Source: Streptomyces sp. TN58
Lineage (GTDB): Bacteria; Actinomycetota; Actinomycetes; Streptomycetales; Streptomycetaceae
NCBI RefSeq assembly: GCF_001941845.1
Contig: NZ_CP018870.1
Location: 1,612,001-1,676,000, forward strand
Direction: 5' to 3'
Length of the DNA stretch: 64,000 nt
Part shown: in pieces, positions 12,282 to 35,456 of the stretch
Layout of the letters: the number at the start of each line of letters is the position of its first letter
Numbering within the stretch: position 1 is the first letter of the stretch
Position numbers and translations under genes: made by a program
Notes under the pieces: model-generated
Told to the model about the DNA's origin: nothing
Seen by the model: only the letters and a program-made list of their open reading frames with translations
The model's database searches: none

Positions 12282-12295
12282 GGGCCGAGAAGCAG

Positions 12296-12345
12296 CCCCG
12301 CCGGCGATCGAGGCGCGGGGGGCCCGGGGCGGAGCCCCCGGCAGC
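12296..12345. repeat. CGCCGGCG-type palindromic intergenic repeat
   Basis: A 25-base dyad at 12296-12320 begins CCCCGCCGGCG and ends AGGCGCGGGG, followed by a second GC-rich stem GGGGC/GCCCC at about 12325-12338. Closely related sequences occur at 22461-22485 (inverted), 22806-22830 and 22994-23018. It separates convergent genes and may act as a bidirectional terminator. Confidence 0.6.
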
Positions 12346-12353
12346 AGGGGCGG

Positions 12354-12743: not shown

Positions 12744-12770
12744 GGGGCTGATTGTCCACCATCGGCGGTC

Positions 12771-12824
12771 AGGGCCTGTATCGAGTTGCCCCGCGGCGTC
12801 GCGAGGCAACTCGATACAGGCCCT
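12771..12824. repeat. Dispersed inverted-repeat element, short copy
   Basis: Arms 12771-12795 (AGGGCCTGTATCGAGTTGCC...) and 12800-12824 are inverted repeats with one mismatch in 25, around a 4-base centre. It is the same family as 3968-4063, shortened in the middle; the shared core GCCCCGCGGCGTCGCG shows the two copies are related beyond the arms. It lies between divergent starts at 12743 and 12869, so here it is not a simple terminator. Confidence 0.8.
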
Positions 12825-12868
12825 AATTGGGAGGCGCCCGGCGTGAGCACGCACGTAGCGTCTGGCCC

Positions 12869-13822
12869 ATGACCGTTCTGATCCGCGATCTCCGTCCGGA
12901 CGACCTCCAGGACACGGAGTCGGTGGTACGGGTGCGCCGCACGGCCCTGCCGTTCCTGGTCACCACCGCCGCAGACGTGGCCTTCGGGCTCTCCCGCTCC
13001 CACCCCGACCGGCACCACCGCGTCCTCGTCGCCGAGACCCCGGACGGCGAGGTCGTCGGTACCGCCGAGGTCGGCATCGCCCACGACAGCCCCCGGCCGG
13101 GCCAGGGCTACGTCAACGCGTACGTCGCCCCCGCCCGCCGCGGCCTCGGCGCCGGCCGGCTCCTGCTCCGCGCGGCCGAGGAGCACCTCGTCGCCCGGGG
13201 GGCGGTGGACTCGTACGCCTGGGTCCTCGACGAGCCCGCGCACCGCGCCTTCGCCGAGCGGCGCGGCTACCGCCCCGGCCGCTCCGCGCACTTCCTGCGC
13301 CTGGACCTCACGACGGCCGAGCTGCCCGCACTCCCGCAGGCCCTCCCGGCCGGGGTGGAGCTGCTGCCCGCCGAGGCCTTCGCCGCGGACCCCAGGCCCC
13401 TCTTCGCGATCGACGCCGAGACGACGGCCGACGAGCCGAGCGACGTGGGCGCCGAACTCGACGACTACGAGGACTGGCTGACCCACACCTGGCACCACCC
13501 CACCCTCGACAAGAAGCTCACGATCGTCGCCCTGGTCGACGGGCAGCCGGTCGCCTTCGCCGCCGCCCGGACCGACGGGGCCTCCCGCTACAGCTCGGCG
13601 ATGACCGGCACACTGCGGCTGTTCCGGGGCCGCGGCCTGGCCAAGCTCGCCAAGAACGCCTCCCTGCACCGCGCCCGCGCGGCCGGCTGCACGGAGGCCT
13701 TCACCGGCAACGACGCGGGGAACGAACCGATGCTCGCCATCAACAGGTGGTTCGGGTACGAGATCTGCGCGACCGAGACGCACTACACGAGGAAGCTGGG
13801 GTCACCGTGGCCGGGCAACTGA
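12869..13822 (+). CDS. Two-domain GNAT acetyltransferase
   Basis: 317 aa, with an N-terminal GNAT domain (residues about 3-150) and a second, more diverged GNAT-like half (about 165-310). The acetyl-CoA loop is visible as 'YVAPARRGLGAGRLLL' near residue 95. The second half has 'RGRGLAKLAKNASLHRARAAG' (split: 'RGRGLAKLAKNASLHRAR') and 'NRWFGYEICATETHY'. The acceptor substrate is not known; related tandem-GNAT proteins acetylate small amines such as mycothiol precursors or antibiotics. The following DUF402 gene starts inside its 3' end (16-nt overlap), so the two are translated together. Confidence 0.88.
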   Translation: MTVLIRDLRPDDLQDTESVVRVRRTALPFLVTTAADVAFGLSRSHPDRHHRVLVAETPDGEVVGTAEVGIAHDSPRPGQGYVNAYVAPARRGLGAGRLLLRAAEEHLVARGAVDSYAWVLDEPAHRAFAERRGYRPGRSAHFLRLDLTTAELPALPQALPAGVELLPAEAFAADPRPLFAIDAETTADEPSDVGAELDDYEDWLTHTWHHPTLDKKLTIVALVDGQPVAFAAARTDGASRYSSAMTGTLRLFRGRGLAKLAKNASLHRARAAGCTEAFTGNDAGNEPMLAINRWFGYEICATETHYTRKLGSPWPGN

Positions 13823-14289
13823 CCGTCGTCCTGACCAAGGCGGGCCGGACCAAGATCCGCTATCCGGCGACGCAGATCGCCGACGACGGTGACCACATCC
13901 GCGTACGGGCTCCCTGGGCCGCGGAGGGCGTACGGGACTTCGGCTTCGTCCGCTTCGAGCCGGGCGACGTGTTCACCGAGCACTTCTGGCGGACGCGCTG
14001 GTACGCGGTCAAGGAGGTCCGGACGGGCGACGGCGCCCTGAAGGGCTGGTACTGCGACGTGACACGTCCGGCCCTGGTCCGCAGCGGGGAGATCATCGTG
14101 GAGGACCTGGATCTCGACCTGTGGGTCTCGGCGGACGGGACGTCCGTACTGCGGCTGGACGAGGACGAGTTCGCCGAGAGCGGCCTGGCCGCGAAGGACC
14201 CGGAGGCGGCGGCCCGGGCGGTCCGCGCCCTGGACGCCCTGGACGACCAGGCCCGCTCCGCGGCCGGCCTGGCCGCGCTCCTTCGATGA
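13807..14289 (+). CDS. DUF402 family protein
   Basis: 160 aa from the GTG at 13807, nested in the end of the GNAT gene. It has the DUF402 core with 'YAVKEVRTGDGALKGWYCDV' near residue 65-84 and 'DLDLDLWVSADGTSVLRLDEDEF' (split: 'DLDLDLWVSADG'). The clustered aspartates are expected to bind a divalent metal. Members of this fold include nucleoside di/triphosphate phosphatases and the RNase FAU-1 domain. Activity here would be phosphohydrolysis, by inference. The overlap with the acetyltransferase implies joint expression. Confidence 0.82.
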   Translation: MAGQLTVVLTKAGRTKIRYPATQIADDGDHIRVRAPWAAEGVRDFGFVRFEPGDVFTEHFWRTRWYAVKEVRTGDGALKGWYCDVTRPALVRSGEIIVEDLDLDLWVSADGTSVLRLDEDEFAESGLAAKDPEAAARAVRALDALDDQARSAAGLAALLR

Positions 14290-14523
14290 GGCTGCCGTTC
14301 CGCGGGCATGCGGAGGGCCCCTTCCTGATCCCGCTCTTTTGCCTTCCTTAAGCGGAGCCTAAGGATCCTCTCCTGGGGGGTCTGTACGGCGAAAAGGCGT
14401 GGTCCGGGGGCTAGCTTGGCAGGGCCAGGACAGGAAGGGCCGGTCGTGGCGCCGCCGGGGGGCGGCGCCGCCGAGCCCCGTTCCGCCGGCGCACCCCTGC
14501 CTTTGCCCGAAGGAGATCCACTC

Positions 14524-15624
14524 ATGTCCGCACGCCGCCGTACCGTGACGCCGATCCGTATCGCCGCCGCCGGCTTCGCCCCGCTCGCGCTGGCCGTGTA
14601 CGCCGCCGTTCCCGCGGCCGCCCACGGCTCCATGACGGACCCGGTCAGCCGGGTCGCGGCGTGCTACGCGGAGGGACCGGAGTCGCCGAAGTCGGCGGCG
14701 TGCAAGGCCGCGGTCGCCGCGAGCGGGACGCAGGCGCTCTACGACTGGAACGCCGTCAACATCGCCAACGCGGCCGGCAACCACCGGTCGCTGATCCCGG
14801 ACGGGCAGCTGTGCTCGGCCGGAAACGACAAGTACCGCGGCCTGGACCTGGCCCGCGCCGACTGGCCGGCCAGCCCCCTGTCCGCCGGCCCGCACACCTT
14901 CCGCTACAAGGGCACGGCCCCGCACCGTGGCTCCTTCGAGCTGTACATCACGAAGGACGGCTACGACCCGGCGAAGCCGCTGAAGTGGTCCGACCTGGAG
15001 CCCGCGCCGTTCGCGAAGGCCACCGACCCGGGCATGCAGAACGGCGACTACGTCTTCTCCGGGACCGTCCCCGGCAAGTCCGGACGGCACCTGATCTACA
15101 GCATCTGGCAGCGCTCCGACAGCCCGGAGGCCTTCTACACCTGCTCGGACGTGGTCTTCGGCAAGGACAACGGCGGCGGGAAGGGCGGGAACGGCGGCAG
15201 CGGCGGTACGGGGGCCGCGCCGAGCACCGAGCCCGGCGCGGGGAACGGCACCGGGAACAACGCCGGGACCGGCAACGGATCCGGGCCGTCGGACAAGCCG
15301 TCCGACAAGCCGGCGGACAAGCCCTCCGCCCCGACCGACCAGCAGATCGCCGACGGCGCCGGCAAGTCCTCCGTGGAGCACAACGGCCACGGCGACAACG
15401 ACCCGAAGACGAACGGCGCGGCCGGCGCCCCGCTCCCCTCCCAGTCCTCGTCGTCCTCCGCGGACTCGGGCGCCCCGGCCGGCGGCAACCTGGCGGAGAC
15501 CGGCGGCAACAGCGCCACCCCGGCCATCGCCGTCGCCGGGGCCGGCGCGCTGGCCCTCGGCGCGGCCGTGCTGTTCACGGTGGCCCGCCGCCGTGCGACG
15601 ACGGCGGGCCGCCACGGCCGCTGA
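14524..15624 (+). CDS. Secreted AA10 lytic polysaccharide monooxygenase with sortase-type anchor
   Basis: 366 aa. The signal peptide (residues 1-33) ends 'VPAAA|HGSM', leaving His34 as the N-terminal copper-brace residue. A second His lies in 'YKGTAPHRGSFEL'. The AA10 catalytic domain runs to about residue 215 and contains paired cysteines. A Gly/Asn then Ser/Pro-rich spacer (215-325) follows. The tail has LAETG, a hydrophobic helix and 'ARRRATTAGRHGR', a class E-type sortase signal. It would oxidise chitin or cellulose while tethered to the wall. The ATG has AAGGAG upstream. Most family members are freely secreted, so the anchor is noteworthy. Confidence 0.88.
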   Translation: MSARRRTVTPIRIAAAGFAPLALAVYAAVPAAAHGSMTDPVSRVAACYAEGPESPKSAACKAAVAASGTQALYDWNAVNIANAAGNHRSLIPDGQLCSAGNDKYRGLDLARADWPASPLSAGPHTFRYKGTAPHRGSFELYITKDGYDPAKPLKWSDLEPAPFAKATDPGMQNGDYVFSGTVPGKSGRHLIYSIWQRSDSPEAFYTCSDVVFGKDNGGGKGGNGGSGGTGAAPSTEPGAGNGTGNNAGTGNGSGPSDKPSDKPADKPSAPTDQQIADGAGKSSVEHNGHGDNDPKTNGAAGAPLPSQSSSSSADSGAPAGGNLAETGGNSATPAIAVAGAGALALGAAVLFTVARRRATTAGRHGR

Positions 15625-15664
15625 CCGGTAGGACTTCACACCGGGCGGACCGCCCGCGCCCCGG

Positions 15665-16525
15665 TCAGGAGAAGACCGAGGCGCAGGTGGTCCGTTCGGC
15701 GTGGGCCGGGTCGAGGGCGTTGAGCACCTCGTGCCAGGCGATCCGGTCGGTGAGCCCGATGGCGACGTGTTCCGAGAGGTCCAGGAAGCACAGGTCCTGG
15801 AGCACGACGTTGCGGACGTTCGGCCCCTCCAGGAAGCCGCTCCGGTACGGCGTCACCACCTCGTCGTACTTGGTGGCGATCACCGTGTACTTCACCCCCG
15901 GGACGGTGTCCCCGCCCGCGTTGAGCTTCTGCAGGAAGGCGGAGCCGGCGATCTGGTCGGCGAGGCCGGGGGTGGCGCTGCTGATCAGGTCCTCGGCCCC
16001 GGGGAAGTACGGGAGGAGCTTGGTGAAGCCGAGCAGGGTCGTGCCGTGGTTGTCGGGGGCCAGCCCGACCAGCGCGTTCACCTTCGCCGCGCCGCCGAGG
16101 AACTTCAGGTAGTAGCGCGGCATCATGCCGCCCTGCGAGTGCCCGACGATGTCGGTCTTGGAGGCGCCGGTGGCGGCGAGCACCTTGTCGACGAACGCGT
16201 CGAGCTGTTCGGCGGACTTGTCGATGGGGCCGAGCCCGTTGAAGAGGGGCACGCCGGGCAGCTGCCCGTAGTCGAGGGAGTAGACGCAGTACCCGCGGTT
16301 CACGAGGTAGGGGGCGAAGCCCAGCCAGTTGTCCCAGGAGTTGCCGAAGGTTCCGTGGACGAGGACGACGGGGCGGGGGTGGGCGGCGGACGGTTTGCAG
16401 GACCAGTCGTTCCAGCCGCGGCTGGGGGCGGACGCGGCCTGCGCCGCGCCGGTGGGGGCGACGAGCGCGGCGGCGGTGAGGACGAGGACGGCCAGCGGGC
16501 GGAGCAGGCGTCTCCAGGGCAGCAT
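15665..16525 (-). CDS. Secreted alpha/beta-hydrolase lipase (lipase class 2 type)
   Basis: 286 aa with a Sec signal (residues 1 to about 30, cleavage near 'AQAAS'). The oxyanion motif 'VVLVHGTFGNSWDNW' is near residue 52 and the nucleophile elbow 'VGHSQGGMMPRYY' near 128. The acid is probably in 'KYDEVVTPY' and the catalytic His in 'LSEHVAIG'. Cysteines near residues 42, 79, 247 and 281 could form disulfides. It hydrolyses extracellular triglycerides or esters. The ATG at 16525 has AAGGAGATCACCC upstream. It is convergent with the monooxygenase, with 40 bp between stops. Confidence 0.9.
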   Translation of the reverse strand: MLPWRRLLRPLAVLVLTAAALVAPTGAAQAASAPSRGWNDWSCKPSAAHPRPVVLVHGTFGNSWDNWLGFAPYLVNRGYCVYSLDYGQLPGVPLFNGLGPIDKSAEQLDAFVDKVLAATGASKTDIVGHSQGGMMPRYYLKFLGGAAKVNALVGLAPDNHGTTLLGFTKLLPYFPGAEDLISSATPGLADQIAGSAFLQKLNAGGDTVPGVKYTVIATKYDEVVTPYRSGFLEGPNVRNVVLQDLCFLDLSEHVAIGLTDRIAWHEVLNALDPAHAERTTCASVFS

Positions 16526-23198: not shown

Positions 23199-24101
23199 GT
23201 GCGCGATCAGGTGCGCACAGCGGACGGGCGCGCTCTGACCGTGGAGCGCTGGGGCGATCCGGACGGCAAGCCCGTCTTCCTGCTCCACGGCATGCCCGGC
23301 AGCCGCCTGGGACCGGCCCCCCGGGGCATGGTTCTCTACCAGCGCCGGATGCAGCTCATCGCCTACGACAGACCCGGCTACGGCGACTCCGACCGCCATC
23401 CCGGCCGCACCGTCGCCGACGTGGCCCATGACGTGGCCGCCGTGGCCGACGCCCTCGGCCTGGACAGGTTCGCGGTGGCCGGCCGCTCCGGAGGCGCCGC
23501 CGGCGCCCTGGCCTGCGCCGCCCTGCTGCCGGACCGGGTCACGCGTACCGCGGCGATGGTCGGGCTGGCCCCCCGGGACGCGGAGGACCTGGACTGGTTC
23601 GCCGGGATGGCCGCATCGAACGTCAGGGAGTACACGACCGCCTCCACCGATCCCGAGGAGCTGGCCGCCCGGCTGATCCCGCGTGCCGACGGCATCCGCA
23701 AGGACCCGGGGCGGCTGCTGGACGAGCTGCGGCGGGAACTGACCGACAACGACCGCATGATCGTCTCCGATGCCGGGCTGCGGTCGATGCTGTTGCGCAA
23801 CTACCGTGAGGGGCTGCGCCGTTCGGCGTACGGCTGGATCGACGACGTCCTCGCCTTCAGCCGTCCCTGGGGCTTCGACCCCGCCGACATCCGCTGTCCG
23901 GTGCTGATCTGGCACGGGGAGCTCGACGTGTTCTCCCCCGTGGGCCACTCCCGTTGGCTGGCCCGCCGGATCCCGGGGGCGACCACCGCGATCGAGCCGG
24001 CCGCCGCGCACTTCGCCGCGCTGCGCGCGCTGCCCGACGTACTGAACTGGCTGCTGCGCGACCTGCCCACCCCGCCCCTGAGCGAACAACGGTCCGCGTA
24101 G
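23199..24101 (+). CDS. Alpha/beta hydrolase
   Basis: 300 aa, cytosolic. The fold motifs are 'VFLLHGMPGSRLG' (oxyanion turn) near residue 27, 'IAYDRPGYGDSDRHPGRT' near 54, and nucleophile elbow 'VAGRSGGAAGALA' near 95. The usual G-x-S-x-G reads GRSGG. The acid is likely in 'HGELDVFSP' and the His in 'AAAHFAAL'. The reaction is probably ester, lactone or epoxide hydrolysis, unresolvable by eye. The GTG at 23199 has GAGGGAGG upstream. It precedes the FxSxx cluster by nearly 200 bp and is probably separate from it. Confidence 0.88.
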   Translation: MRDQVRTADGRALTVERWGDPDGKPVFLLHGMPGSRLGPAPRGMVLYQRRMQLIAYDRPGYGDSDRHPGRTVADVAHDVAAVADALGLDRFAVAGRSGGAAGALACAALLPDRVTRTAAMVGLAPRDAEDLDWFAGMAASNVREYTTASTDPEELAARLIPRADGIRKDPGRLLDELRRELTDNDRMIVSDAGLRSMLLRNYREGLRRSAYGWIDDVLAFSRPWGFDPADIRCPVLIWHGELDVFSPVGHSRWLARRIPGATTAIEPAAAHFAALRALPDVLNWLLRDLPTPPLSEQRSA

Positions 24102-24294: not shown

Positions 24295-24459
24295 GTGAAC
24301 ACTTCCGCAACCCCCCCGACCAGCACGGTCAAGGCCCGCCGGGTCCCGCTCGCCAAGATCGACGTCGAGACCGCCGCCGCGGCCGCGACGCTCGGCCGCG
24401 TGCTGCCCGCCGAATCCGGCCGTCCGGTTCAGGCACCGATCTTCAACTCCGCGCTCTGA
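24295..24459 (+). CDS. fxsA: FxSxx-COOH RiPP precursor peptide (FxsA)
   Basis: 54 aa. The leader includes 'KARRVPLAKIDVETAAAAA' and 'LGRVLPAESGRPVQAP', and the peptide ends IFNSAL, so the last five residues FNSAL fit the F-x-S-x-x-COOH signature exactly. In this family the maturase joins the Phe ring to the Ser two residues on, making a three-residue cyclophane. The GTG at 24295 follows GAGGAC at a good distance; an upstream in-frame ATG at 24259 lacks an RBS. The maturase gene starts 28 bp after the stop. The final product and any leader cleavage are unknown. It is short enough to be missed by gene callers. Confidence 0.9.
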   Translation: MNTSATPPTSTVKARRVPLAKIDVETAAAAATLGRVLPAESGRPVQAPIFNSAL

Positions 24460-24487
24460 CACGGAGTAAGCGCTCTAGACTGGCGGA

Positions 24488-26740
24488 ATGACCGGCCTGA
24501 TCGCATTTCGCGAGATCGTCCTGAAAGTTCACAGCAGATGCGATCTTGCTTGTGATCATTGCTATGTCTACGAACACGCAGATCAGAGCTGGCGAGCCCG
24601 GCCGAAAGTGATCTCCCCCGAGGTTATTTCACGGACCGCGTCGAGGCTCGCCGAACATGCCCGTGACCATGCACTCCCCTCCGTCACGGTGATTCTCCAC
24701 GGAGGGGAACCCCTGTTGGCGGGCACGGCCCGGCTCCGACTCGTCTGCGAGGAGTTCAGCCGGGCGCTCACCGGGATCGCCACCCTCGACCTGCGGATCC
24801 ACACCAACGGCCTCCAGCTCGGCACACGCCACCTCGACCTCTTCGCGGAGTTCGGCGTCCGCGTCGGCGTCTCCCTCGACGGGGACCGCGCCGCGAACGA
24901 CCGCCACCGCCGCTTCGCGGACGGCCGTACGAGCCACCCGCTGGTCCTCGCCGCCGTCGCGCTGCTGCGCTCCGAGCCCTACCGCCACCTCTACCAGGGT
25001 CTGCTCTGCACCGTGGACGTGGCCAACGATCCCGTCGCCGTGCTCGACGCGCTCGTCGAACTCGGCCCCCCGCGCGTGGACTTCCTCCTCCCGCACGCCA
25101 CGTGGGAGACGCCCCCCGCCCGGCCGGACGGCGCCCCCGACGCCTACGCCCGCTGGCTCCTGCGCGTCTTCGACCACTGGGAGCGGCTGGGCCGCCCGGT
25201 ACCCGTCCGGCTCTTCGAGTCCGTACTGTCCACCCTGCGCGGCGGGCCCAGCCTCACGGAGTCGCTCGGCCTCGCGCCCACCGACCTCGTCGTCGTCGAG
25301 ACCGACGGGACCCTGGAGCAGGTGGACTCCCTCAAGAGCGCCTTCGAGGGGGCCGCGGCCACCGGCTTCAACGTCTTCGACCACGCCTTCGACCAGGTCG
25401 CGGCCCACCCCGGGGTCCGGGCCCGGCAGCTGGGCCTGGCGGGCGTCAGCGACACGTGCCGCCGCTGCCCCGTCGTACGTTCGTGCGGGGGAGGCCTCTA
25501 CACCCACCGCTACCGCGACCGCAACGGCTTCGACAACCCTTCCGTCTACTGCACCGACCTGCGCGAACTCGTGGACGGGATCGAGGGCCGCACCGCGCAC
25601 CGGGAGACCGCCCCGCAGCTGTCCGACCCGGCCGAACTGGCCCGCTCCCAGCAGGAGCTGACCCGGATCCTGCTGGCCCGGCTGAACGCGGACCTGGCCG
25701 ACGACCCCGAATGGGCGCACGCCTGGGAGCTGGTGGCCGCGGTGGAGCGGGCCGGGGAGGCGGGCGCCGACGCGCTGGACGCCGTACTGGACCACCCGTT
25801 CACCCGGACCTGGGTCCTCGCGGCCCTGGACGCGGGGCGGGAGGGCCGCACCGGTGGCGCGGAGGCGGCCCGCAGGCTCACGGCGCTGGCCGCGGCGGCC
25901 GTGCTGCGCGGCGGGCTGGACCTGCCGGCCGAGGTGGCCTACCGGGACGGCGAGGTGTATCTGCCGACGCTCGGGCTGCTGCGGCTCGGGGAGCCGGGCA
26001 CGGAGGGCCGGGCCTCGCTGCGCGCCACCGAAGAGGGGTACGCCGTGCGCGACGGCCGCTCCGAGCACCGCTTCGGGCCGGCGGCGGGCGATGCCCGCTG
26101 GCAGCCCGTCCGCACCTGGTCGCCGGGCCCGGACGCGGCGCAGGTGGCGCTGGAGGACCTGGACCCGTACCGCAACTGCTTCCCCCGCCCGCCCAGGCTG
26201 CGGCTCGGCGCCGGGGAGGCCGAGGAGTGGCGGGGCAGGCTGGACCGGGCCTGGGCGCTGCTGCACAGGGCGGTGCCCGGGTTCGCGCGGACGGCGGCGG
26301 CGGGGCTGACCACGCTGACGCCGCTCGCGGGCGGCCCGCGGGCCGGCGGCTGGGGCGAGGCGGGCCGGAGCGGGCCGGGGGCGCTCGGGGTGCCGTACGC
26401 GGCGGGCGTACGGGAGACGGCGCTGGCGCTGCTGACCGGGCGGCGGCGGACCCGGCTGCGGGCCCTGACCGAGGTGGCCGACCTGTACGCGCTGGACGGG
26501 GAGTGGCAGCATCCGTCGCCGTGGCGGTCGCGGCCGGTGCCGGTGTCGCGGCTGCTGGCCGATGTGCACGAGCGGGTGGCGGTGGAGGCGTACCGGCGGG
26601 CGACGTCCGGGCCCGAGCCGGGCGGGTCGGAGCGCATCCACGAGGCCCTGGACCGGCTGTCGGCGGCGGCGGAGCTGACGGTCACCGGCAAGCGTCTGGT
26701 GGCGGAGCTGCGCTACGAGCTGAAGGCGGTCGGCGCGTGA
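24488..26740 (+). CDS. fxsB: FxsB-type radical SAM/SPASM cyclophane maturase with C-terminal extension
   Basis: 750 aa. Cys18, Cys22 and Cys25 ('CDLACDHCYVYEH') form the CxxxCxxC [4Fe-4S] site. 'VILHGGEPLLAG' is the GGE SAM motif. The SPASM region near 322-355 has 'CRRCPVVRSCGGGLYTHRYR' and a later 'VYC' for auxiliary clusters. Residues about 400-750 are the beta-hydroxylase-like extension seen in FxsBH forms, with 'HPSPWRSRPVPVSRLLADVH' near the end. Where HExxH would be expected the protein reads VRETALAL near 640, so that site looks dead. The opening codons are clearly more A/T-rich than the rest. The stop overlaps the next start (GTGA). Confidence 0.92.
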   Translation: MTGLIAFREIVLKVHSRCDLACDHCYVYEHADQSWRARPKVISPEVISRTASRLAEHARDHALPSVTVILHGGEPLLAGTARLRLVCEEFSRALTGIATLDLRIHTNGLQLGTRHLDLFAEFGVRVGVSLDGDRAANDRHRRFADGRTSHPLVLAAVALLRSEPYRHLYQGLLCTVDVANDPVAVLDALVELGPPRVDFLLPHATWETPPARPDGAPDAYARWLLRVFDHWERLGRPVPVRLFESVLSTLRGGPSLTESLGLAPTDLVVVETDGTLEQVDSLKSAFEGAAATGFNVFDHAFDQVAAHPGVRARQLGLAGVSDTCRRCPVVRSCGGGLYTHRYRDRNGFDNPSVYCTDLRELVDGIEGRTAHRETAPQLSDPAELARSQQELTRILLARLNADLADDPEWAHAWELVAAVERAGEAGADALDAVLDHPFTRTWVLAALDAGREGRTGGAEAARRLTALAAAAVLRGGLDLPAEVAYRDGEVYLPTLGLLRLGEPGTEGRASLRATEEGYAVRDGRSEHRFGPAAGDARWQPVRTWSPGPDAAQVALEDLDPYRNCFPRPPRLRLGAGEAEEWRGRLDRAWALLHRAVPGFARTAAAGLTTLTPLAGGPRAGGWGEAGRSGPGALGVPYAAGVRETALALLTGRRRTRLRALTEVADLYALDGEWQHPSPWRSRPVPVSRLLADVHERVAVEAYRRATSGPEPGGSERIHEALDRLSAAAELTVTGKRLVAELRYELKAVGA

Positions 26741-27585
26741 GCGGCCACTCCGCCGCCCCTGCCCCGGCGGGTCCGGGCCGGGGCCGCCGGGGCACGGGCG
26801 CCCTGCAGCTCGCGGTGCAGCTGCGGCTGCTCGGGGTCCGGCCGGGGATGCGGCTGCTGGTGCACGCGTCCCTGCGCGGGACCGGGCTGCGCGCGGAGCA
26901 GCTGCGTGACGCCCTGAGGGGGGTCCTGGGCCCGCGCGGGACGCTGGTGGTGCCCGCGTTCACCCCGGAGAACTCCAGGACGTCCAGCGCCCACCTGGAG
27001 CGGATCGCCGGAATGGACGAGGCGGAGGTGCGGGCCTTCGTCGACCGGATGCCGGCCTTCGACCCGGCGAGCACTCCGAGCCACGGCATGGGCTCCTTCG
27101 CGGAGTCCGTCCGCACGGCTCCGGGGGCTGCGCGCAGTTCCCATCCCCAGACGTCCTTCGCCGCGCTCGGCGCGGACGCGGAGCGCCTTTGCGCCGGTCA
27201 CCGCCTTGAGTGCCACCTCGGCGAGGAGTCGCCCCTGGGAAAGCTGTGCTGGGAGGGCGGGCAGGTACTCATGATCAATGTGGGGTTTTCTGTCTGCACT
27301 GCCTTCCATCTCGCGGAGTATCGAATTCCGAAGCCCCCCTTGCGCATGTACGAGTGTGTGGTGAAGGTGAACCTTCCGGAGGGGCGTCAGGGGTCCCGTC
27401 AGGAGGGGGTGTGGACCGCATACGAGGACGTCGCGCTGGACGACGGTGATTTCGCGGAGATCGGCAGGGCGTTCCCGGATTCGCGGGTGCGCAGGGGGCG
27501 GGTCGCGGGAGCGTCGGCCATGCTCTTCTCCGTCCCGGACGCCGTCGACCACTCCCTTGACTGGATGACCGAAAACAGACGCTGA
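26737..27585 (+). CDS. AAC(3)-family N-acetyltransferase in the FxSxx operon
   Basis: 282 aa. Motifs of aminoglycoside 3-N-acetyltransferases are visible: 'LLVHASLRGTG' near 42, 'GTLVVPAFTPENS' near 67, 'PSHGMGSFAESVR' near 112, 'RSSHPQTSFAALG' near 130 and 'SPLGKLCWEGGQVLMINVG' near 166. These cover the acetyl-CoA and active-site His region. The GTG overlaps the fxsB stop, so it is translationally coupled. Being within a peptide-modification operon, it may acetylate the modified peptide or an amine partner rather than an antibiotic; this is inference. The 3' third (about 27260-27460) is lower in GC than its neighbours. Confidence 0.85.
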   Translation: MSGHSAAPAPAGPGRGRRGTGALQLAVQLRLLGVRPGMRLLVHASLRGTGLRAEQLRDALRGVLGPRGTLVVPAFTPENSRTSSAHLERIAGMDEAEVRAFVDRMPAFDPASTPSHGMGSFAESVRTAPGAARSSHPQTSFAALGADAERLCAGHRLECHLGEESPLGKLCWEGGQVLMINVGFSVCTAFHLAEYRIPKPPLRMYECVVKVNLPEGRQGSRQEGVWTAYEDVALDDGDFAEIGRAFPDSRVRRGRVAGASAMLFSVPDAVDHSLDWMTENRR

Positions 27586-27664
27586 TTGACTGGACGATGA
27601 GGGGATGTGGCGAAGCAGCTCCGGAATGATGTTTCTTCGCTCGCAGCTTCGGGACGGGGGGCGT

Positions 27665-29020
27665 GTGCCCGCATCAGTGCAGCCGTATTTTTTTCTCAGT
27701 TATGCGCATACACCGAGATTCGGGGCCGGGGGGCCCGACCCCGACATGTGGGTCGAGCGCCTGTTCCGTGATCTCTGCAGCCATGTCATGGCGCTGACGG
27801 ACCTGCCGGCGGGGGCCGAGGCCGGCTTCATGGACCGGGAGATACGCAGCGGCGAGGGCTGGTCGGAGCGGCTGGGGGCGGCGCTCGCCACCTGCCGGGT
27901 CTTCGTGCCGTTGTTCTCGCCGCGGTACTTCGCCAGTGAGATGTGCGGCAAGGAGTGGTACGCCTTCGCGCAGCGGGCGATCCACCAGGGGGCGTTGAGC
28001 AACCAGCCGGCCGAGGCCATCGTGCCGGCGTTGTGGGTGCCGGTCCCGCCGTCCCAACTCCCCGGCCCTGCCGAGCGGTTGCAGTTCAACCACAACACCT
28101 TCGGCGAGCGGTACGTCACCGACGGGCTGTACGGGCTGATCAAACTGCGGGGCTACGCCGAGCAGTACGAGCGGGCGGTGTACGAGCTCGCCAAGCGCAT
28201 CGTGCGGGTCGCCGAGACGGTCCGCCTGGAACCGGTCCGCCCGCTGGACTACCGGGGCGTGCCGAGCGCCTTCGGCCCCGCGGGCGGCGGCAGCCCCGCC
28301 CGCACCCTGCACGTGACCGTCGCCGCCGCCTCCCGGCACGACCTGCCGGACGGCCGCAGCCCGGAGTACTACGGGGACAGCGCGCTGGAGTGGAACCCGT
28401 ACCACCCGGTGGCGCAGCGGCCCATCGCCTACGTCGCCGAGGACCTGGTCAAGAACCTCAACTACCAGACGAGCATCGGCTCCTTCGACGACGAGGCCGG
28501 ACACTACGACAGCAAGCAGCCGCCGACGCGGCCGGAGATCCTGATCGTCGACCGCTGGGTGGTGGAGGACGAGCACCGCCGCCGGCGTCTGGCCGCCTTC
28601 GACCAGGAGTCCCGTCCGTGGGTCAACGTGGTGGTGCCGTGGAACCGCTACGACCACCAGAGCCGGGCGAAGGAGCTGGAGCTGGCGCGGCGGCTGGAGG
28701 AGACCCTGCCGGTCAAGATGGGCCAGGGCCGGGCGGCCTGCCGGGCCGCCGCCAACGGCGTGGCGAACATGGAGACGCTCGGCCAGATCCTGCCGCAGGT
28801 GGTCGAGGCGGCGGCGCAGCAGTTCCTCAGACACGCCCAGGTCTACCTGCCGGCCGGCAACTCCCCCACCGAACGCCCGCGACTGCTGGGGCCGATGGGG
28901 ATGGGCGGGCCTCCGGCCCCGCGGCCGGCGCCCTTCCCGCCCGACACGTTCGGCGGCCACAACGACGGCAACGACAGCAACGACACCGACCGGGGGGACG
29001 CGGATGACAGCGAGTCGTGA
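27665..29020 (+). CDS. fxsC: TIR-like FxsC protein
   Basis: 451 aa. The first 150 residues look like a TIR-related fold: 'YFFLSYAHTPRFG', 'GFMDREIRSGEGW', 'VFVPLFSPRYFASEMCGKEW'. The glutamate in CGKEW is where the NADase glutamate sits in enzymatic TIR domains. A second domain (about 230-400) has 'RPIAYVAEDLVKNLNYQTS', 'EILIVDRWVVEDEHRRRR' and 'WVNVVVPWNR'. The tail is Gly/Pro then Asp/Asn-rich. FxsC proteins are known only as partners in FxSxx systems. I prefer the GTG at 27665; ATG codons at 27626 and 27629 are alternatives. It overlaps the next gene by 17 nt. Confidence 0.85.
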   Translation: MPASVQPYFFLSYAHTPRFGAGGPDPDMWVERLFRDLCSHVMALTDLPAGAEAGFMDREIRSGEGWSERLGAALATCRVFVPLFSPRYFASEMCGKEWYAFAQRAIHQGALSNQPAEAIVPALWVPVPPSQLPGPAERLQFNHNTFGERYVTDGLYGLIKLRGYAEQYERAVYELAKRIVRVAETVRLEPVRPLDYRGVPSAFGPAGGGSPARTLHVTVAAASRHDLPDGRSPEYYGDSALEWNPYHPVAQRPIAYVAEDLVKNLNYQTSIGSFDDEAGHYDSKQPPTRPEILIVDRWVVEDEHRRRRLAAFDQESRPWVNVVVPWNRYDHQSRAKELELARRLEETLPVKMGQGRAACRAAANGVANMETLGQILPQVVEAAAQQFLRHAQVYLPAGNSPTERPRLLGPMGMGGPPAPRPAPFPPDTFGGHNDGNDSNDTDRGDADDSES

Positions 29021-32000
29021 CAGCGGTGACGGCCGTGACGGACGCATCGTCACCTTCTATTCGTACAAGGGCGGTACGGGCCGCACCATGGCGCTGGCCA
29101 ACACCGCCTGGATCCTGGCGGCCAACGGCAAGCGGGTCCTGGCCGTGGACTGGGACCTGGAGGCCCCGGGCCTGCACCGCTTCTTCCACCCGTTCCTGGA
29201 CCCGTCGACGCTCGGGGCCACCACCGGGGTCATCGACCTGATCAGCGAGTACGCGTGGGCGGCGACCAGTCCGGTGGCGCGGGCGGACGACTGGCACAAG
29301 GACTACGCGCGGATACAGCCGCACGCCGTCTCGCTGACTCCGGAGACGCTGGGCTGGGAGTTCCCGGACGGCGGCACCCTGGACTTCGTCTCGGCGGGCC
29401 GGCAGAACCGCGAGTACTCCGCGACCGTGTCCACCTTCGACTGGGACAACTTCTACGACCGGCTGGGCGGCGGCCTGTTCTTCGACGCCTTACGCGCGGA
29501 CATGAAGAGCAACTACGACTACGTCCTGATCGACAGCCGCACCGGCCTGTCCGACATCGCGGACATCTGCACCGTGCACCTGCCGGACATCCTGGTGGAC
29601 TGCTTCACCCTGTCCGACCAGTCCATCGACGGCGCCGCGTCGGTGGCCCGCCAGATCGACGAGCGGTTCAACGACCGGGGCATCAAGATCTACCCGGTCC
29701 CGATGCGGATCGACGAGGGCGAGAAGGAGAAGGCCGACGCGGGGCGGGCGCTGGCCCGGCTGAAGTTCGACCGGTTCCCGGGCGGCCTGGTCGGGGACGA
29801 GCTCACCTCCTACTGGGGCGCGGTGGAGATCCCGTACCGGCCCTACTACGCCTACGAGGAGACGCTGGCCACCTTCGGCGACGAGGCGGGGCTGACGAAC
29901 TCGCTGCTCTCCGCCTTCGAGCGGCTGACCGCCGTGGTCACCGAGGGCGAGATCACCTCCATGCCGGCGATCGGCGAGGAGGTGCGGCTGCGGATCAGGG
30001 ACGCGTTCACCCGGCGCCGGCCGGCGCTGCCGGCGGACCTGTTCCTGTCCTATGTCGCGGAGAACCGGATGTGGGCCGACTGGATCGAGTCGGTACTGAC
30101 CCGGGCCGGGTTCCGGGTGGTGCCCAAGGACGTCTCGGCCGAGCCGCCGGCGGCGGGCGCCACGGCCTCCGCCGGCGGTGACACCCTGGGCGGCGGTACA
30201 GGTATCAGCGTCGACACCGCGGCCCGGACCGTGGTGCTGCTGTCCACGGCGTACCTGAAGTCGGCGCGGGCCGTGGACGTGTGGGAGCGGGCCGCGGCCG
30301 AGGACCCGACGGGCGGTCGGCGTCAGCTGGTGCCGTTGCGGGTGGGTGACGTACGGCTCGCCACGCCGTACATCGACCGCAACCCGGTGGACCTCTTCCG
30401 GCTCGACGAGGTGCACGCCACGGCGGCGCTGCTGCGTGCGGTGGAGCGGCCGATGGCCCTGCCCGACAGCGTGGCGAGCGCTTCGCAGCCCGGCCCGCGC
30501 TTCCCGGGGACCGTCCCGAAGATCTGGAACGCCCCGCCCCGCAACCCGGGGTTCACCGGCCGCAGCATCGTGCTGGAGCGGATGCGCGACCAGCTCGGCG
30601 GCGGCATGGCGGTGGTGCTGCCGCAGCCGCAGACCCTGTTCGGCCTCGGCGGTGTCGGCAAGACCCAGGTGGCACTGGAGTACGTGCACCGGTTCATGGC
30701 CGACTACGACCTGGTGTGGTGGATCTCCTCGGAGCACACCGACGAGGTGGTCGCCGCGCTCGCGGAGCTGGCCGTACGGCTGGGCGCGCAGACGGGCGAG
30801 GACATGGCGGCCGCCTCGCAGGAGGCGATCGACCTGCTGCGCAGGGGGGTGCCGTCCTCCCGCTGGCTGCTGGTCTTCGACAACGCCGACGATCCCGAGG
30901 CCCTCAAGCGGTTCTTCCCGCCGGGCGGTCCGGGCCATGTGCTGGTGACCTCCCGCAACCAGTCCTGGTCGCAGTACGGTGACGCGCTGCCGGTGGACGT
31001 GTTCCTGCGCGAGGAGTCCATCGAGCACCTTCAGCGCCGGGCCCCCGGGCTGGGCAAGGAGGACGCCGAGCAGGTCGCGATCGCGGTGGGCGACCTGCCG
31101 CTGGCCGTGGAGCAGGCGGGCGCCTGGATCGCGGAGACCGCGACGCCGGTGGCCGCGTACCTGGAACAGCTGGCCCAGCAGACGGCGAGCGTCCTGGGGC
31201 TGAACCAGCCGCCCGGATATCCGGAGCCGGTGGCCGCCACCTGGAACATCTCGATAGAGCGGCTCCAGTCGCGCTCCCCGGCCGCCGTGCGGCTGCTCCA
31301 GCTGTGCGCGTTCCTGGCGCCGGAGCCGATCTCGGCGAACCTGCTGTACAGCAAGGAGATGATCGACGCCCTCAAGCCGTACGACGCCTCCCTCCAGGAG
31401 AAGCTGGTGCTGGGGCGGGTGATCCGGGAGATCGGCCGGTTCGCGCTGGCCAAGGTCGACCAGGTCAGCAACAGCATCCAGGTGCACCGGCTGGTGCAGG
31501 CGGTGATCCGTTCGCAGATGCCGGAGGAGGAGCAGCGGGAGGCCCGGCACGCCGTCCACCGGATCCTGGCCGGGGCCCGGCCGGACGACGACGAGCCGAT
31601 CGACAACCCGGAGACGTGGCCCCGGTTCAACACCATCTGGTCGCACCTCTCGCCGTCCGAGGCCCGGTACTGCAAGGAGCCGGAGACGCGCAGGCTGCTG
31701 ATCGACCGGGTCCGCTACCTGTGGAAGCGCGGCGACTTCAAGACCGCCTACCAGCTCGGCGAGGAACTGCGCGACGCCTGGAAGGAGATGCTGGGCAACG
31801 ACGACCTCCAGTACCTGTACCTGCGCTTCCACCTGTCGAACATCCTGCGCTCGCAGGGCCGGTTCGTGGAGGCGAAGGAGCTGGACGAGGTCACGCTGGA
31901 ACGGCAGAAGGCGGTGCTGGGGCCCTCGCACCCGCACACGTACATGACCATGAGCGGTCTGGCCAACACCCTCGGCGCACTGGGCCAGTACGGGCAGGCG

Positions 32001-33005
32001 ATGGAGCTGGCGACCGAGGCGCACGAGGGGTTCAGCCAGATCTTCCACGAGGCGCATCCGCGCACGCTGGCGGCGGCGAACAACCTGGCGCTGAACCTGC
32101 GGCTGGTGGGCCAGTACACCAGAGCCCGTGAGATCGACACCGAGGTGTACGACCTGCGCACGGAGGTGCTGGGGCCGGAGCACCCGTACACCCTGTCCTC
32201 CGCGCAGAACCTGGCCCGCGACCTGCGCGAGGTGGGCCGGTACGAGGACTCGGTGCAGCTGCTGAGCCGGACGTACGAGATCTACAAGCGGACGCTGGGC
32301 CGGGCGTTCCCGGGCACCCTGTCGGCCGCGAAGAACCTGGCGGTGTCGCTGCGCAGGGCGGGGCAGCTGGAGGACGCGCTGCGGCTGACCACGGCCACCC
32401 GGGCCCGCTACCGGGCCAAGTACACCTCGGTCAACCCGGACCTGCTCTCCTGCGAACTGAACCTGGCGTCGGACCTGTTCGCGACCGGTGACCCGGGCGG
32501 GGCGCGGGATCTGGCGCAGGAGGTGGTGGACGAGTACATGAAGGTCCCGGGCGAGCGGCACCCGTACACCCTGGCGGCCGTGAACAACCTGGCGGTCTTC
32601 CACTGGGGCACGGGTGCGGCGGAACCGGCGGAGGCGATGCTGCGGCACACGATCCGGCTGATGCGGGACGTCCTGGGCGACAACCACCCGCACACGGTCT
32701 TCGCCCAGCTCAACCTGGCCAACGCCCGCGCCGACCTGGGCGATCCGGAGGGGGCCCTGGAGCTGGAGCGGCTCGCGGTGCTGCGGCTGCGCGAGGCTCT
32801 GGGGGCGCACCATCCGGAGACCCTGGCGAGCAGCTCCAACATGGCGATCAGCCTGGACTCGATGGGGCGCAGGGAGGAGGCGGCCCGGCTGCGCGCCGAG
32901 GTGGTGGCCGAGCTGACCCGGCTGCTCGGCGAGGAGCACAGCCTCACCCGGTACGCCCGTGACGAGCGGCGGATCCACCGGGATCTGGAGCCTCTCGCCG
33001 TGTGA
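29004..33005 (+). CDS. fxsT: FxSxx-system multi-domain P-loop/TIR-like/NB-ARC/TPR protein (FxsT)
   Basis: 1333 aa. Residues 15-300: a ParA/MinD-like ATPase with 'FYSYKGGTGRTMALANTAW' (K22) and 'LAVDWDLEAPGLHRFF'. Residues about 341-480: TIR-like, 'DLFLSYVAENRMWADWIESV' through 'VVLLSTAYLKSARAVDVWER'. Residues about 500-800: an NB-ARC-like NTPase with 'LFGLGGVGKTQVALEY' near 545 and 'WLLVFDNADDPEALKRFFPP' near 618. Residues about 900-1330: tetratricopeptide repeats of the 'A-N-N-L-A' kind with 40-42 residue spacing ('HPYTLAAVNNLAVFHWGTG'). The domain order is that of STAND signalling ATPases: sensor repeats, oligomerising NTPase and effector-like head. It probably couples perception of the modified peptide or another ligand to an output. 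Confidence 0.9.
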   Translation: MTASRDSGDGRDGRIVTFYSYKGGTGRTMALANTAWILAANGKRVLAVDWDLEAPGLHRFFHPFLDPSTLGATTGVIDLISEYAWAATSPVARADDWHKDYARIQPHAVSLTPETLGWEFPDGGTLDFVSAGRQNREYSATVSTFDWDNFYDRLGGGLFFDALRADMKSNYDYVLIDSRTGLSDIADICTVHLPDILVDCFTLSDQSIDGAASVARQIDERFNDRGIKIYPVPMRIDEGEKEKADAGRALARLKFDRFPGGLVGDELTSYWGAVEIPYRPYYAYEETLATFGDEAGLTNSLLSAFERLTAVVTEGEITSMPAIGEEVRLRIRDAFTRRRPALPADLFLSYVAENRMWADWIESVLTRAGFRVVPKDVSAEPPAAGATASAGGDTLGGGTGISVDTAARTVVLLSTAYLKSARAVDVWERAAAEDPTGGRRQLVPLRVGDVRLATPYIDRNPVDLFRLDEVHATAALLRAVERPMALPDSVASASQPGPRFPGTVPKIWNAPPRNPGFTGRSIVLERMRDQLGGGMAVVLPQPQTLFGLGGVGKTQVALEYVHRFMADYDLVWWISSEHTDEVVAALAELAVRLGAQTGEDMAAASQEAIDLLRRGVPSSRWLLVFDNADDPEALKRFFPPGGPGHVLVTSRNQSWSQYGDALPVDVFLREESIEHLQRRAPGLGKEDAEQVAIAVGDLPLAVEQAGAWIAETATPVAAYLEQLAQQTASVLGLNQPPGYPEPVAATWNISIERLQSRSPAAVRLLQLCAFLAPEPISANLLYSKEMIDALKPYDASLQEKLVLGRVIREIGRFALAKVDQVSNSIQVHRLVQAVIRSQMPEEEQREARHAVHRILAGARPDDDEPIDNPETWPRFNTIWSHLSPSEARYCKEPETRRLLIDRVRYLWKRGDFKTAYQLGEELRDAWKEMLGNDDLQYLYLRFHLSNILRSQGRFVEAKELDEVTLERQKAVLGPSHPHTYMTMSGLANTLGALGQYGQAMELATEAHEGFSQIFHEAHPRTLAAANNLALNLRLVGQYTRAREIDTEVYDLRTEVLGPEHPYTLSSAQNLARDLREVGRYEDSVQLLSRTYEIYKRTLGRAFPGTLSAAKNLAVSLRRAGQLEDALRLTTATRARYRAKYTSVNPDLLSCELNLASDLFATGDPGGARDLAQEVVDEYMKVPGERHPYTLAAVNNLAVFHWGTGAAEPAEAMLRHTIRLMRDVLGDNHPHTVFAQLNLANARADLGDPEGALELERLAVLRLREALGAHHPETLASSSNMAISLDSMGRREEAARLRAEVVAELTRLLGEEHSLTRYARDERRIHRDLEPLAV

Positions 33006-33068
33006 TCCGACGGAGGGTGGCGGGGACCGCGGTCCCCGCCGCCCGCCACCCGACTCAAGGGGGGCGTT

Positions 33069-33977
33069 GTGACCGACAGCATGACCTTTCGAAACGAGGA
33101 CCTGCCGGCCCTCTTCCACCACACGGACCAGGCGGCGATCTCCCGGCAGCGGGAGTCCACGCAGGCGACGAGGACCCAGCTGCTGCTGCTCGTCCTGGCG
33201 GCGGGGGCGGCGGCGCTGCCGCCGGGGCCCGAGATCGGCTCGCTGCACCTCTTCGGGCTGCTGAGCGTGCTCGGTTACGCGGGGGTGCTGGGGGTGGGCA
33301 TGCGGGCGACCCGGCGCCGGGCCCGCCCGCAGTGGCAGCTGAACCGCAGTGCGGCGGAGTTCATCAAGTCCCTGGCCTGGCGGTACGCGGTGCACGGGGC
33401 GCCGTTCGGCAGCGACGTGGCCGATCCCGGGGAGGCGTACCACGCGCGGCTTGAGGCGGGTCTGGCCGAGCTGCGGAAGATGGGCTGGGAGGATCCGCGG
33501 GCGTCGGGAGCCGTGCCGGAGGGTGCGGAGATCACCGGGGCGATGCGGCGGCTGCGCGGCAGGGACTACCACGTGCGGCGGGAGACGTACGTCCGGGACC
33601 GGCTGATCGAGCAGCGCAACTGGTACCGGCGGCGGACGGAGGTGTCCCGGCGGGCGACACACCTGTGGTCGTGGACGATCGTCCTGCTGACCTGTCTGGC
33701 GCTGCTGTTCGCCGTGCTGAGGGCGTTCGGTTCGGGTCCGGGGACGGGCCTGACGGGGCTGCTGAGCACGGCGGCGGCGGCCGGTATCGCCTGGAACGAG
33801 GTACGCCGCCACCACCCGCTGATCGAGGCGCACACCCTGATCGAGCAGGATCTGGCGGCGATGATGGTCGTGATGCAGACGACCATCACGGAGTCGCAGT
33901 GGCCCACGTCGGTGTACGAGACCGAGCGGTACGTCTCGCCGCAGCACACGGACTGGTTGGCCCGGCACAGCAGTTGA
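33069..33977 (+). CDS. DUF4231/SLATT-like four-helix membrane protein
   Basis: 302 aa. Two hydrophobic hairpins, near residues 37-85 and 198-240, flank a charged cytosolic middle ('LRGRDYHVRRETYVRDRLIE'). The C-terminal part has 'IEAHTLIEQDLAAMMVVMQT' and ends soluble. The paired-helix pattern fits DUF4231, which belongs to the SLATT group of two-helix membrane proteins. These are predicted pore-forming effectors, often next to SLOG or nucleotidyltransferase sensors. The GTG at 33069 has AAGGGGGG upstream and lies 63 bp after fxsT, so it is probably in the same transcript. A SLOG-like gene lies convergently 19 bp beyond. Confidence 0.75.
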   Translation: MTDSMTFRNEDLPALFHHTDQAAISRQRESTQATRTQLLLLVLAAGAAALPPGPEIGSLHLFGLLSVLGYAGVLGVGMRATRRRARPQWQLNRSAAEFIKSLAWRYAVHGAPFGSDVADPGEAYHARLEAGLAELRKMGWEDPRASGAVPEGAEITGAMRRLRGRDYHVRRETYVRDRLIEQRNWYRRRTEVSRRATHLWSWTIVLLTCLALLFAVLRAFGSGPGTGLTGLLSTAAAAGIAWNEVRRHHPLIEAHTLIEQDLAAMMVVMQTTITESQWPTSVYETERYVSPQHTDWLARHSS

Positions 33978-33996
33978 GGCGGCGGGTGGGCGTGGC

Positions 33997-34476
33997 TCAG
34001 TCCCGGGTCACGCCTTCGCGCCACAGGACGGTGACCGGCTTGCCGAGGGACCGGGCGTAGGCGACGATCTCGGCGGTGCCGCCGTGTCCGCGGGCGGGCC
34101 GGCCGTCCCAGACGGCGACGAGCCGGTCGCAGGTGTCGGCGATGTAGGTGCCCGCGGCGTAGTAGGCCTCGTCCGTGGAGCGGGCGAAGTCCATGCGGAC
34201 CTCCTGGGTGGCCCGGCGCCTGAGGCGGCGGTAGCGGTCGAGCGCTTCGGGGCCCTCGAAGGCCTCTTCGTAGTCCGCGCTGGGGATCACCACGGTCAGG
34301 TCGGCGCCGCAGTCGAGTGCGACGGCGGCGAAGAGCTGGTCCGCGCCGTCGGCGAGGCTGGAGAGGGCTTCCAGCGGCCCTTCGTGGCCGCCCAGTACGG
34401 CCCGCAGGCCGTTCTCCACATGGCCGAGCACCGATGCGGGGAGGGACCGGTGCCCGGTCACGCCGATGCGCTTCAT
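33997..34476 (-). CDS. SLOG-like nucleotide-binding protein
   Basis: 159 aa, single domain. The N-terminus 'MKRIGVTGHRSLPAS' is a Rossmann-type GxTGHR loop. 'LSSLADGADQLFAAVAL' and 'DLTVVIPSADYEEAFEG' follow, and near the end comes 'AVWDGRPARGHGGTAEIVAYA', a pattern (D-G-x-P-A-x-x-x-G-G-T) typical of SLOG/LOG and DprA-like folds. SLOG domains bind nucleotide-derived ligands and are often paired with SLATT effectors. The convergent arrangement, ending 19 bp from the SLATT-like gene, preserves that pairing without an operon. The ATG at 34476 has a modest AGG RBS. Confidence 0.78.
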   Translation of the reverse strand: MKRIGVTGHRSLPASVLGHVENGLRAVLGGHEGPLEALSSLADGADQLFAAVALDCGADLTVVIPSADYEEAFEGPEALDRYRRLRRRATQEVRMDFARSTDEAYYAAGTYIADTCDRLVAVWDGRPARGHGGTAEIVAYARSLGKPVTVLWREGVTRD

Positions 34477-34574: not shown

Positions 34575-35456
34575 TCAGTAGACGCTGACCCCGTAGGCGT
34601 TGAGGGCTTCGACCACGGGCTGGAAGAAGGTGGTGCCGCCCGAGGAGCAGTTTCCGCTGCCGCCGGAGGTGAGGCCGACGGCGCGGGTGCCCGAGTAGAG
34701 CGGGCCGCCGCTGTCGCCCGGCTCGGCGCACACGTTGGTGCGGATCATGCCGTAGACGATGTCGCCGCCGCCGTAGTTGACGGTGGCGTTGAGGCCGGTG
34801 ACCCGGCCGCTGTGGGTGCCGGTGGTGGAGCCGCGCCGGGTCACGGACATGTTGACCGTGGCGTTGACGGCGCTGGTGATGTCCTGGCCGCCGACGGTCC
34901 CCGGGGGTGCGGGCGTGTTGCTGGCGTACTTGACGAGGCCGTAGTCGTTGTTGGGGAAGCTGGAGCCGGCCGTGGAGCCGAGGACGTTGGTACGGGCGGA
35001 GTTCGTCCACCAGGTGCCGGCGCCGTCGGTGCAGTGCCCGGCGGTGAGGGCGTAGTAGTTGGAGCCGCTGCGGACGTTGAAGCCGAGCGAGCAGCGCCAG
35101 CTGCTCGCGTAGATGGCGTCGCCGCCGGAGGCCAGCTTGGTGAGCTTGCCGGGGATGCGCTCGATGCGCAGGGCGCCTGCGTCGGCTCCGGCCTCGCGCT
35201 TGATTCTCGCGATGGCCGCTGCGGAGACGGTGGAGTCGGCGGAGACCACGAGGGTTCCGGTGGCGGGGTCGGCGTGCCAGGCGGTGCCCGCTACGTCGGC
35301 GCGCAGGACGGAGGCGCCGGCCGAGGCGAGCCGGTCGGCGCTGAATCCTCCGTCCTGCGGGTCCGCGCTCGCCGTGGGTGCGGCGAGCGCTGCGGCGGCG
35401 GCCAGGCCGGTGGCCACCGCGAGCAGCCTGTTACGGGTGGTGCGCTTGATCCTCAC
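34575..35456 (-). CDS. Secreted streptogrisin-type serine protease (S1)
   Basis: 293 aa preproenzyme. The signal peptide is residues 1 to about 32 ('AAPTASADP'). A propeptide of roughly 80 residues ('[20 protein letters not shown]') precedes a mature part starting near residue 112. The triad is His in '[10 protein letters not shown]', Asp in 'NNDYGLVKY' and Ser in '[12 protein letters not shown]'. Cysteines pair around the His loop (RCSLGFN / GHC), near the Ser, and in 'GNCSSGG'. It is an extracellular digestive or developmental protease. The GTG at 35456 has AGGAGG on the minus strand, 7 bases upstream. It is convergent-side neighbour to the SLOG gene with about 100 bp between. Confidence 0.93.

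Follow-up and report, generated by a model that had tools for sequence, protein, structure and literature searches.

A SLATT-SLOG gene pair recurrently but optionally associated with FxSxx peptide operons in Streptomyces

Why does a peptide-modification operon of Streptomyces sp. TN58 lead into a gene for a putative membrane effector, with a gene for a putative nucleotide sensor facing it? The operon encodes an FxSxx system, predicted to produce a ribosomally synthesized and post-translationally modified peptide (RiPP), and it lies in the 64-kb stretch analyzed here (the window, positions 1612001-1676000 of a 7.585-Mb single-contig genome), next to genes for a SLATT and a SLOG protein. We know of no established purpose for the FxSxx peptide. 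The association between fxs genes and the SLATT-SLOG pair is real, recurrent and optional. As an explanation we tentatively propose, with a probability of about 0.48, that this is an FxSxx cyclophane-RiPP system that has the pair as its output arm and runs a relay from TIR to SLOG to SLATT.

According to NCBI models the FxSxx system is complete and encoded in an operon, with all core components over their curated cut-offs and in the order A-B-C-T. The window locus thereby shares all core components of the FxSxx-COOH systems (TIGR04268, TIGR04269, NF040587, NF040588, TIGR04276, NF040586). On the forward strand, fxsA (24295-24459; TIGR04268, 33.8 bits, cut-off 28) encodes an FxSxx-COOH precursor with an FNSAL end and is followed after 28 bp by fxsBH (24488-26740), which encodes a radical SAM/SPASM maturase with an inactivated HExxH extension (TIGR04269, 584.6 bits, cut-off 370; NF040587, 417.2 bits; PF04055). 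The title of NF040587, "inactivated beta-hydroxylase extension form", matches this protein, and we take IPR026335 to be the FxsB family. A gene for an AAC(3)-like acetyltransferase-fold protein (26737-27585, forward; PF02522, 2e-66) overlaps fxsBH by GTGA; it is present in only part of the related loci, and some relatives are without it. The gene for the TIR protein FxsC (27605-29020, forward; NF040588, 237 bits; TIGR04276, 212 bits; PF13676) has a fixed end and an uncertain start, with candidates at ATG 27605, GTG 27665 and GTG 27677. It overlaps by 17 bp fxsT (29004-33005, forward), which encodes a STAND protein combining KGGVGR ParA-like (AAA), TIR (TIR_2), NB-ARC and TPR regions (NF040586, 1050 bits; NF047398; PF00931).

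The proposed effector begins 63 bp downstream of fxsT. This SLATT_3 plus SLATT_1 (DUF4231) membrane protein (33069-33977, forward; PF18184, PF18181, NF033610, NF033634) has E-values of 6.3e-37 for SLATT_3, 2.4e-38 for SLATT_1 and 2.2e-17 for DUF4231, with both SLATT domains over the curated cut-off (PF18184, 127.6 bits; PF18181, 131.3 bits), and is the single SLATT_3 match in the genome. Its hydropathy profile has three stretches above a Kyte-Doolittle value of 1.4 and a fourth below it, and the structure model has long helices. By SLATT identity (92-94%), the nearest named relatives include Streptomyces amritsarensis, S. virginiae and S. yangpuensis. Convergent to this gene is one for a 159-aa protein, the proposed nucleotide sensor (33997-34476, reverse strand). 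This protein has no match in Pfam or NCBIfam; its AlphaFold model (predicted local distance difference test score, pLDDT, 95.4) matches the folds of YpsA, DprA, ShosA and LOG, and on this model it is a SLOG/DprA-YpsA Rossmann-like fold. Relatives at two other loci (L285, L289) match PF02481 and YAcAr, below cut-off. The sequence-only reading of the locus had named all seven genes and the convergent placement of the SLOG-like one, and these are confirmed by profile matches and, for SLOG, by the AlphaFold model. The spacings it gave agree with those above; its 80-bp gap upstream of fxsC is close to the 79 bp that would separate fxsC from the AAC(3)-like gene if GTG 27665 is the start.

The linkage was surveyed in 295 genomes of the genus and in a class-wide sample of 394 genomes. 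The SLATT clade of the window protein was counted at 89 matches in 87 Streptomyces genomes (those of at least 230 bits plus one truncated copy, in G167), and at least 78 of these lie within 20 kb of an FxsT among the matches listed (the best 150, down to 875 bits, which makes such counts lower bounds). The remaining 11 include 7 with at least one fxs gene nearby, at contig ends or in decayed operons, and 4 with none, bringing the number with an fxs gene nearby to 85 of 89. At an uncounted locus, L118 (G077), a 29% fxsT match lies about 7 kb from the SLATT gene. Clade members of G235, G242 and G222, split into pieces below 230 bits, fall outside the 89; those of G235 and G222 were found to be fxs-linked (L115 and L116). 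Viewed in reverse, 75 of the 93 listed FxsT matches above 1000 bits have a SLATT match within 20 kb, and among the others are additional fxs copies, loci at contig ends or in decay, and genuine loci without the pair.

Eighty named loci, the best 80 of 181 confirmed relatives by SLATT-profile likeness and drawn from genomes shared with the 295-genome set, all have SLATT and SLOG tail-to-tail, and 78 of them have fxsB, fxsC or fxsT. The two without any of these genes are a 4-kb contig (L210) and the S. purpureus locus (L221). SLATT matches were found in 21 of the 394 class-wide genomes, and the 12 matches above 400 bits are all within Streptomyces. Distant Streptomyces fxs loci, in which fxsT is 39-42% identical (L073, L092, L112, L115, L116), retain SLATT without the other flanks of the window locus; a SLOG match was found at L073, L092, L115 and L116, and not at L112. 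At L115, integrase-like and replication-initiator-like frames recognized by eye (11095-13798) adjoin the fxs-SLATT-SLOG set, which may thus be mobile here as part of an integrative element.

The linkage is also found in a second family, that of genome G577, whose contig has a protein deposited as Microbispora siamensis. Among 200 genomes of this family, 53 have FxsC over cut-off and 11 SLATT matches exceed 330 bits. Nine of the 11, a count that includes the query itself, have FxsC no more than 4.5 kb away. In 7 of these 9 SLOG adjoins SLATT; it was not found in the short pieces examined at L282 and L286. The gene orders are of two types, one with SLOG, SLATT and fxs on one strand (L225, L287, L290, L291) and the other with SLATT-SLOG divergent from fxs (L283, L284, L288). 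The SLATT proteins of this family fall in another part of the tree, near TIR-linked SLATTs and two unlinked Streptomyces SLATTs. A single clade of all fxs-linked and TIR-linked SLATTs (26 sequences versus 13) was rejected (p-AU 0.00066) by an approximately unbiased (AU) test that was framed after an earlier tree had hinted at its answer. The fxs/SLATT-SLOG linkage therefore recurs in two bacterial families, two SLATT lineages and four gene arrangements. Two histories would account for this: recruitment of the pair to fxs more than once, or an old association that the unlinked lineages lost. Both point to a functional tie between the pair and fxs. The association of SLATT and SLOG with the fxs operon, put forward in the sequence-only reading, is thus well supported. 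At L287, two candidate FxSxx precursors (ends AFQSSI and AFNSSI) lie upstream of one fxsB (3878-4499).

The two geometries found within Streptomyces are connected. In 26 of the 78 named loci with fxs genes, as in the window, SLATT is downstream of fxs and co-oriented with it, and in 52 it is upstream of fxsA and divergent. At L074 (G188), where SLATT is 80% identical to that of the window, and at other loci, the outer gene order is that of the window, with the hydrolase on one side and SLATT, SLOG, the protease, genes 36079 and 37723 and the acyl-CoA dehydrogenase on the other; the fxsA-fxsT block alone has the opposite orientation. These conserved outer flanks around a reversed block show that the two geometries are related by in-place inversion of the fxs operon, in the lineage of the window relative to L074 and the other loci. 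SLATT adjoins fxs before and after the inversion. Since only 63 bp separate it from fxsT afterwards, its expression probably relies on read-through or on a promoter inside fxsT. A sequence scan located a perfect 22-bp palindrome (33019-33040) absent from the sequence-only reading, one of four perfect palindromes of at least 18 bp in the window, that occupies much of this gap, and part of the relatives have hairpins of differing sequence there.

Clues to mechanism come from the TIR proteins. In the second family SLATT occurs with a TIR protein in 11 of 11 cases, with FxsC in 9 and with another TIR protein in 2. In these two (L285, 1878-5421; L289, 1995-5562), SLATT, the TIR protein and SLOG are encoded on one strand, and no fxs genes were found at the locus in the fetched DNA; G791, the genome of L285, carries FxsC on another contig. 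The TIR proteins of both sets have a long C-terminal part without Pfam match. These three-gene sets are candidate minimal conflict systems, and their occurrence apart from fxs suggests a signal made by the TIR protein. At L284, SLOG-SLATT adjoins fxsC and fxsT, and neither fxsA nor fxsB was found within 11 kb. At L230, in another family (f18), a row of genes (3106-16385) encodes a vWA protein, an FxsC-like TIR protein, a KGGVGR ParA/TIR protein and SLATT.

The Cys and Glu of a CxxE helix in FxsC are kept in 19 of 19 diverse sequences, and both are likewise kept in an alignment with the L285 TIR protein (the Glu in 10 of 10). In HMMER, a plant TIR (E 2.6e-6) and the NADase AbTIR (E 0.0014) both align with the latter through this helix. 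On this alignment of the L285 protein, the FxsC Glu presumably corresponds to the catalytic Glu of AbTIR. At the corresponding place the FxsT TIR has, judged by eye, another residue in most of 19 sequences (V or L in several), with Glu kept in L260; the NB-ARC P-loop of FxsT is intact in the sequences that reach it. Retention of Glu in FxsC and its replacement in most FxsT suggest that FxsC acts as an enzyme and FxsT as a receptor or scaffold. About 18 kb from the operon, the window also has an NAD-related cluster (51966-56875) encoding two RlaP nucleotidyltransferases, an ADP-ribosylglycohydrolase, a NUDIX/NrtR-type protein, an AAA_28/cytidylyltransferase-like protein that we read as NadR-like, and a nicotinamide mononucleotide (NMN) transporter. 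A connection between this cluster and the TIR proteins is purely speculative.

In the proposed pathway, FxsBH would close a Phe-x-Ser cyclophane in FxsA, and the peptide, together with a cellular trigger, would act on the STAND protein FxsT. FxsT would work with FxsC, whose TIR domain would make an NAD-derived nucleotide; SLOG would bind this nucleotide, and SLATT would open or damage the membrane, leading to growth stop or cell death. The pore-forming or membrane-damaging activity of SLATT proteins is itself a prediction from the literature. Nucleotide sensing and membrane action as outputs, as the sequence-only reading had it, fit the SLATT and SLOG families, and its suggestion of a defence system is plausible.

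A close parallel is Thoeris, in which the TIR protein ThsB makes a cyclic ADP-ribose (cADPR)-type signal that is read by the SLOG domain of ThsA, as described in passages of PMC9503650. By this analogy, the locus most likely resembles a Thoeris-type TIR-to-SLOG relay with a SLATT effector, controlled by a modified peptide and a STAND sensor. It differs from Thoeris in that no SIR2 domain was found (the SIR2 family is absent from the Pfam matches of seven window proteins, and no Thoeris model is among the PADLOC matches of six), in that the effector would be SLATT, in the added STAND protein and RiPP, and in that the window SLOG is closest to YpsA/DprA rather than to ThsA. The same passages place TIR-SLATT neighbourhoods in firmicute phages and predict that SLATT answers ADP-ribose (ADPr)-type signals (PMC9503650). 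These neighbourhoods share TIR and SLATT with the window; SLOG, STAND and RiPP components go unmentioned in that part of the source.

Other systems resemble parts of the locus. DRT10 consists of a reverse transcriptase, a noncoding RNA and SLATT, and deletion of SLATT abolishes its phage defence, according to excerpts of PMC12632851. SLATT is the proposed membrane effector in both DRT10 and the window, whereas the signal proposed for DRT10 is cDNA, with no peptide, STAND or SLOG mentioned in these excerpts. Extracts of two further papers mention SLATT with a reverse transcriptase (PMC9122126) and with RADAR (PMC7699616). For the peptide, the triceptides (three-residue cyclophane RiPPs) offer a model: MscB (IPR026335) joins Phe C4 to Ser C-beta (PMC11002830, in part). 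Such a Phe-Ser link would fit the F-N-S of the window precursor, although the window maturase differs by its inactivated HExxH extension. Sections of PMC7159879 describe FxSxx peptide processing coupled to conflict systems, including standalone versions with a MinD/ParA-AP-ATPase gene, and suggest a peptide toxin or signal. SLATT passages of the same source concern other systems and FxSxx and SLATT are treated apart; these sections name no SLATT or SLOG beside the standalone FxSxx systems, to which the window locus adds the pair. Within the open PubMed Central (PMC) literature, where this was the one source retrieved that covers both FxSxx and SLATT, we found no paper tying SLATT or SLOG to FxSxx. 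SLATT and SLOG were reportedly defined by Burroughs and others in 2015, in work that may mention such neighbourhoods.

A number of findings weigh against the proposed relay. The pair is not mostly beside unrelated genes in these SLATT lineages; counting all fxs loci, however, most are without it, with FxSxx_TPR over cut-off in 271 of the 295 genus genomes and a SLATT match of any strength in 102. Outside Streptomyces, all 27 FxsC matches over cut-off in the class-wide sample were retrieved, 24 of them with fxsT, and SLATT plus SLOG is present at 1 of these 24 loci (L225). SLATT-SLOG is thus an accessory of some fxs lineages. Real Streptomyces fxs loci without the pair also exist (L103, L104, L106-L108), as do pairs without fxs, at G057, G158 and G182:C26 (about 20 kb each) and on a 5.6-kb contig of G261. 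Much of the linkage within Streptomyces is synteny inherited vertically. A GC-rich hairpin often separates fxsT from SLATT, and at those loci SLOG is encoded on the other strand. PADLOC gives no match for the window SLATT or SLOG, the fold-match Z of the window SLOG against ThsA is only in the tool's "middling" range, and a single-sequence search with FxsC found no TIR in the PDB.

Some of this would be expected if a self-contained SLATT-SLOG pair were merely hitch-hiking with fxs in a chromosomal region that is stable in Streptomyces, with no common function. The hydrolase, protease and acyl-CoA dehydrogenase flanks are likewise conserved around many close relatives, and SLATT-SLOG persists at the same chromosomal site after fxs loss (L086, L098). 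Outside the genus, at L227 (7127-10736), SLATT, SLOG and a 618-aa protein that matches no Pfam family are encoded on one strand next to housekeeping genes (ObgE-like and glutamate-kinase-like), with neither an fxs nor a TIR match in the six frames scanned. We nevertheless consider hitch-hiking rather unlikely, as the pair keeps with fxs where other flanks have vanished (L073, L092, L115, L116) and, in another family, SLATTs of a distinct lineage are linked to fxs in different gene arrangements.

The locus could instead serve a developmental or kin-signalling circuit, with the cyclophane peptide as self-signal and SLATT-SLOG tuning membrane permeability in differentiation or programmed mycelial death. 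It is chromosomal and mostly vertical in Streptomyces; comparison of the window SLATT with 72,556 plasmid records gives distant matches only (in 19 records, each below 60% identity) and with 50,697 phage records gives no match at E 1e-5, and the toxin or signal role proposed for peptides of related FxSxx systems (PMC7159879, in the sections cited) would suit it. However, it is chiefly as parts of conflict systems that the SLATT, TIR, SLOG and NB-ARC/TPR families are known, and the presence of SLATT is patchy, with several losses; we consider such a circuit rather unlikely too. Very improbable, in our judgement, is a role of SLATT in export of the FxSxx peptide or in immunity to it, with SLOG as the regulator of SLATT. 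Pfam assigns none of the five fxs-operon proteins to a transporter family, and SLATT is the only recognized membrane protein of the set; but most fxs loci manage without SLATT, L285 and L289 have SLATT, TIR and SLOG with no peptide or maturase in the fetched DNA, and L284 retains SLATT with fxsC and fxsT where fxsA and fxsB were not found.

Neighbouring genes include a possible further member of the set, an alpha/beta hydrolase (23199-24101, forward; PF00561) that is often a neighbour of fxsT in relatives. In four partly overlapping sets of fxsT loci it is tail-to-tail with fxsT at 30 of 48, 46 of 72, 7 of 24 and 5 of 11, and it may be an unrecognized FxSxx component. It is found too where SLATT is absent, and in a further family (L225, L243-L247, L252). 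Beside SLOG, the window encodes a trypsin-like protease with an alpha-lytic prodomain (34575-35456), as do many close Streptomyces relatives.

In summary, what may be new here beyond the linkage is a TIR/SLOG/SLATT conflict-system variant under RiPP control. FxSxx systems are very common in Streptomyces, and their repeated tie to a membrane-effector/nucleotide-sensor pair offers a testable role. A bolder generalization, possible if doubtful, is that some FxSxx systems are peptide-gated immune receptors, in which the cyclophane peptide would guard or prime FxsT, which would act through the FxsC TIR and SLOG on a SLATT pore; in two actinobacterial families at least, SLATT-SLOG came to be linked with fxs, and the L285 and L289 sets would be a stripped-down form of the relay. 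If this is true, the RiPP would act inside the cell, within an immune receptor, and not as a secreted weapon or signal.

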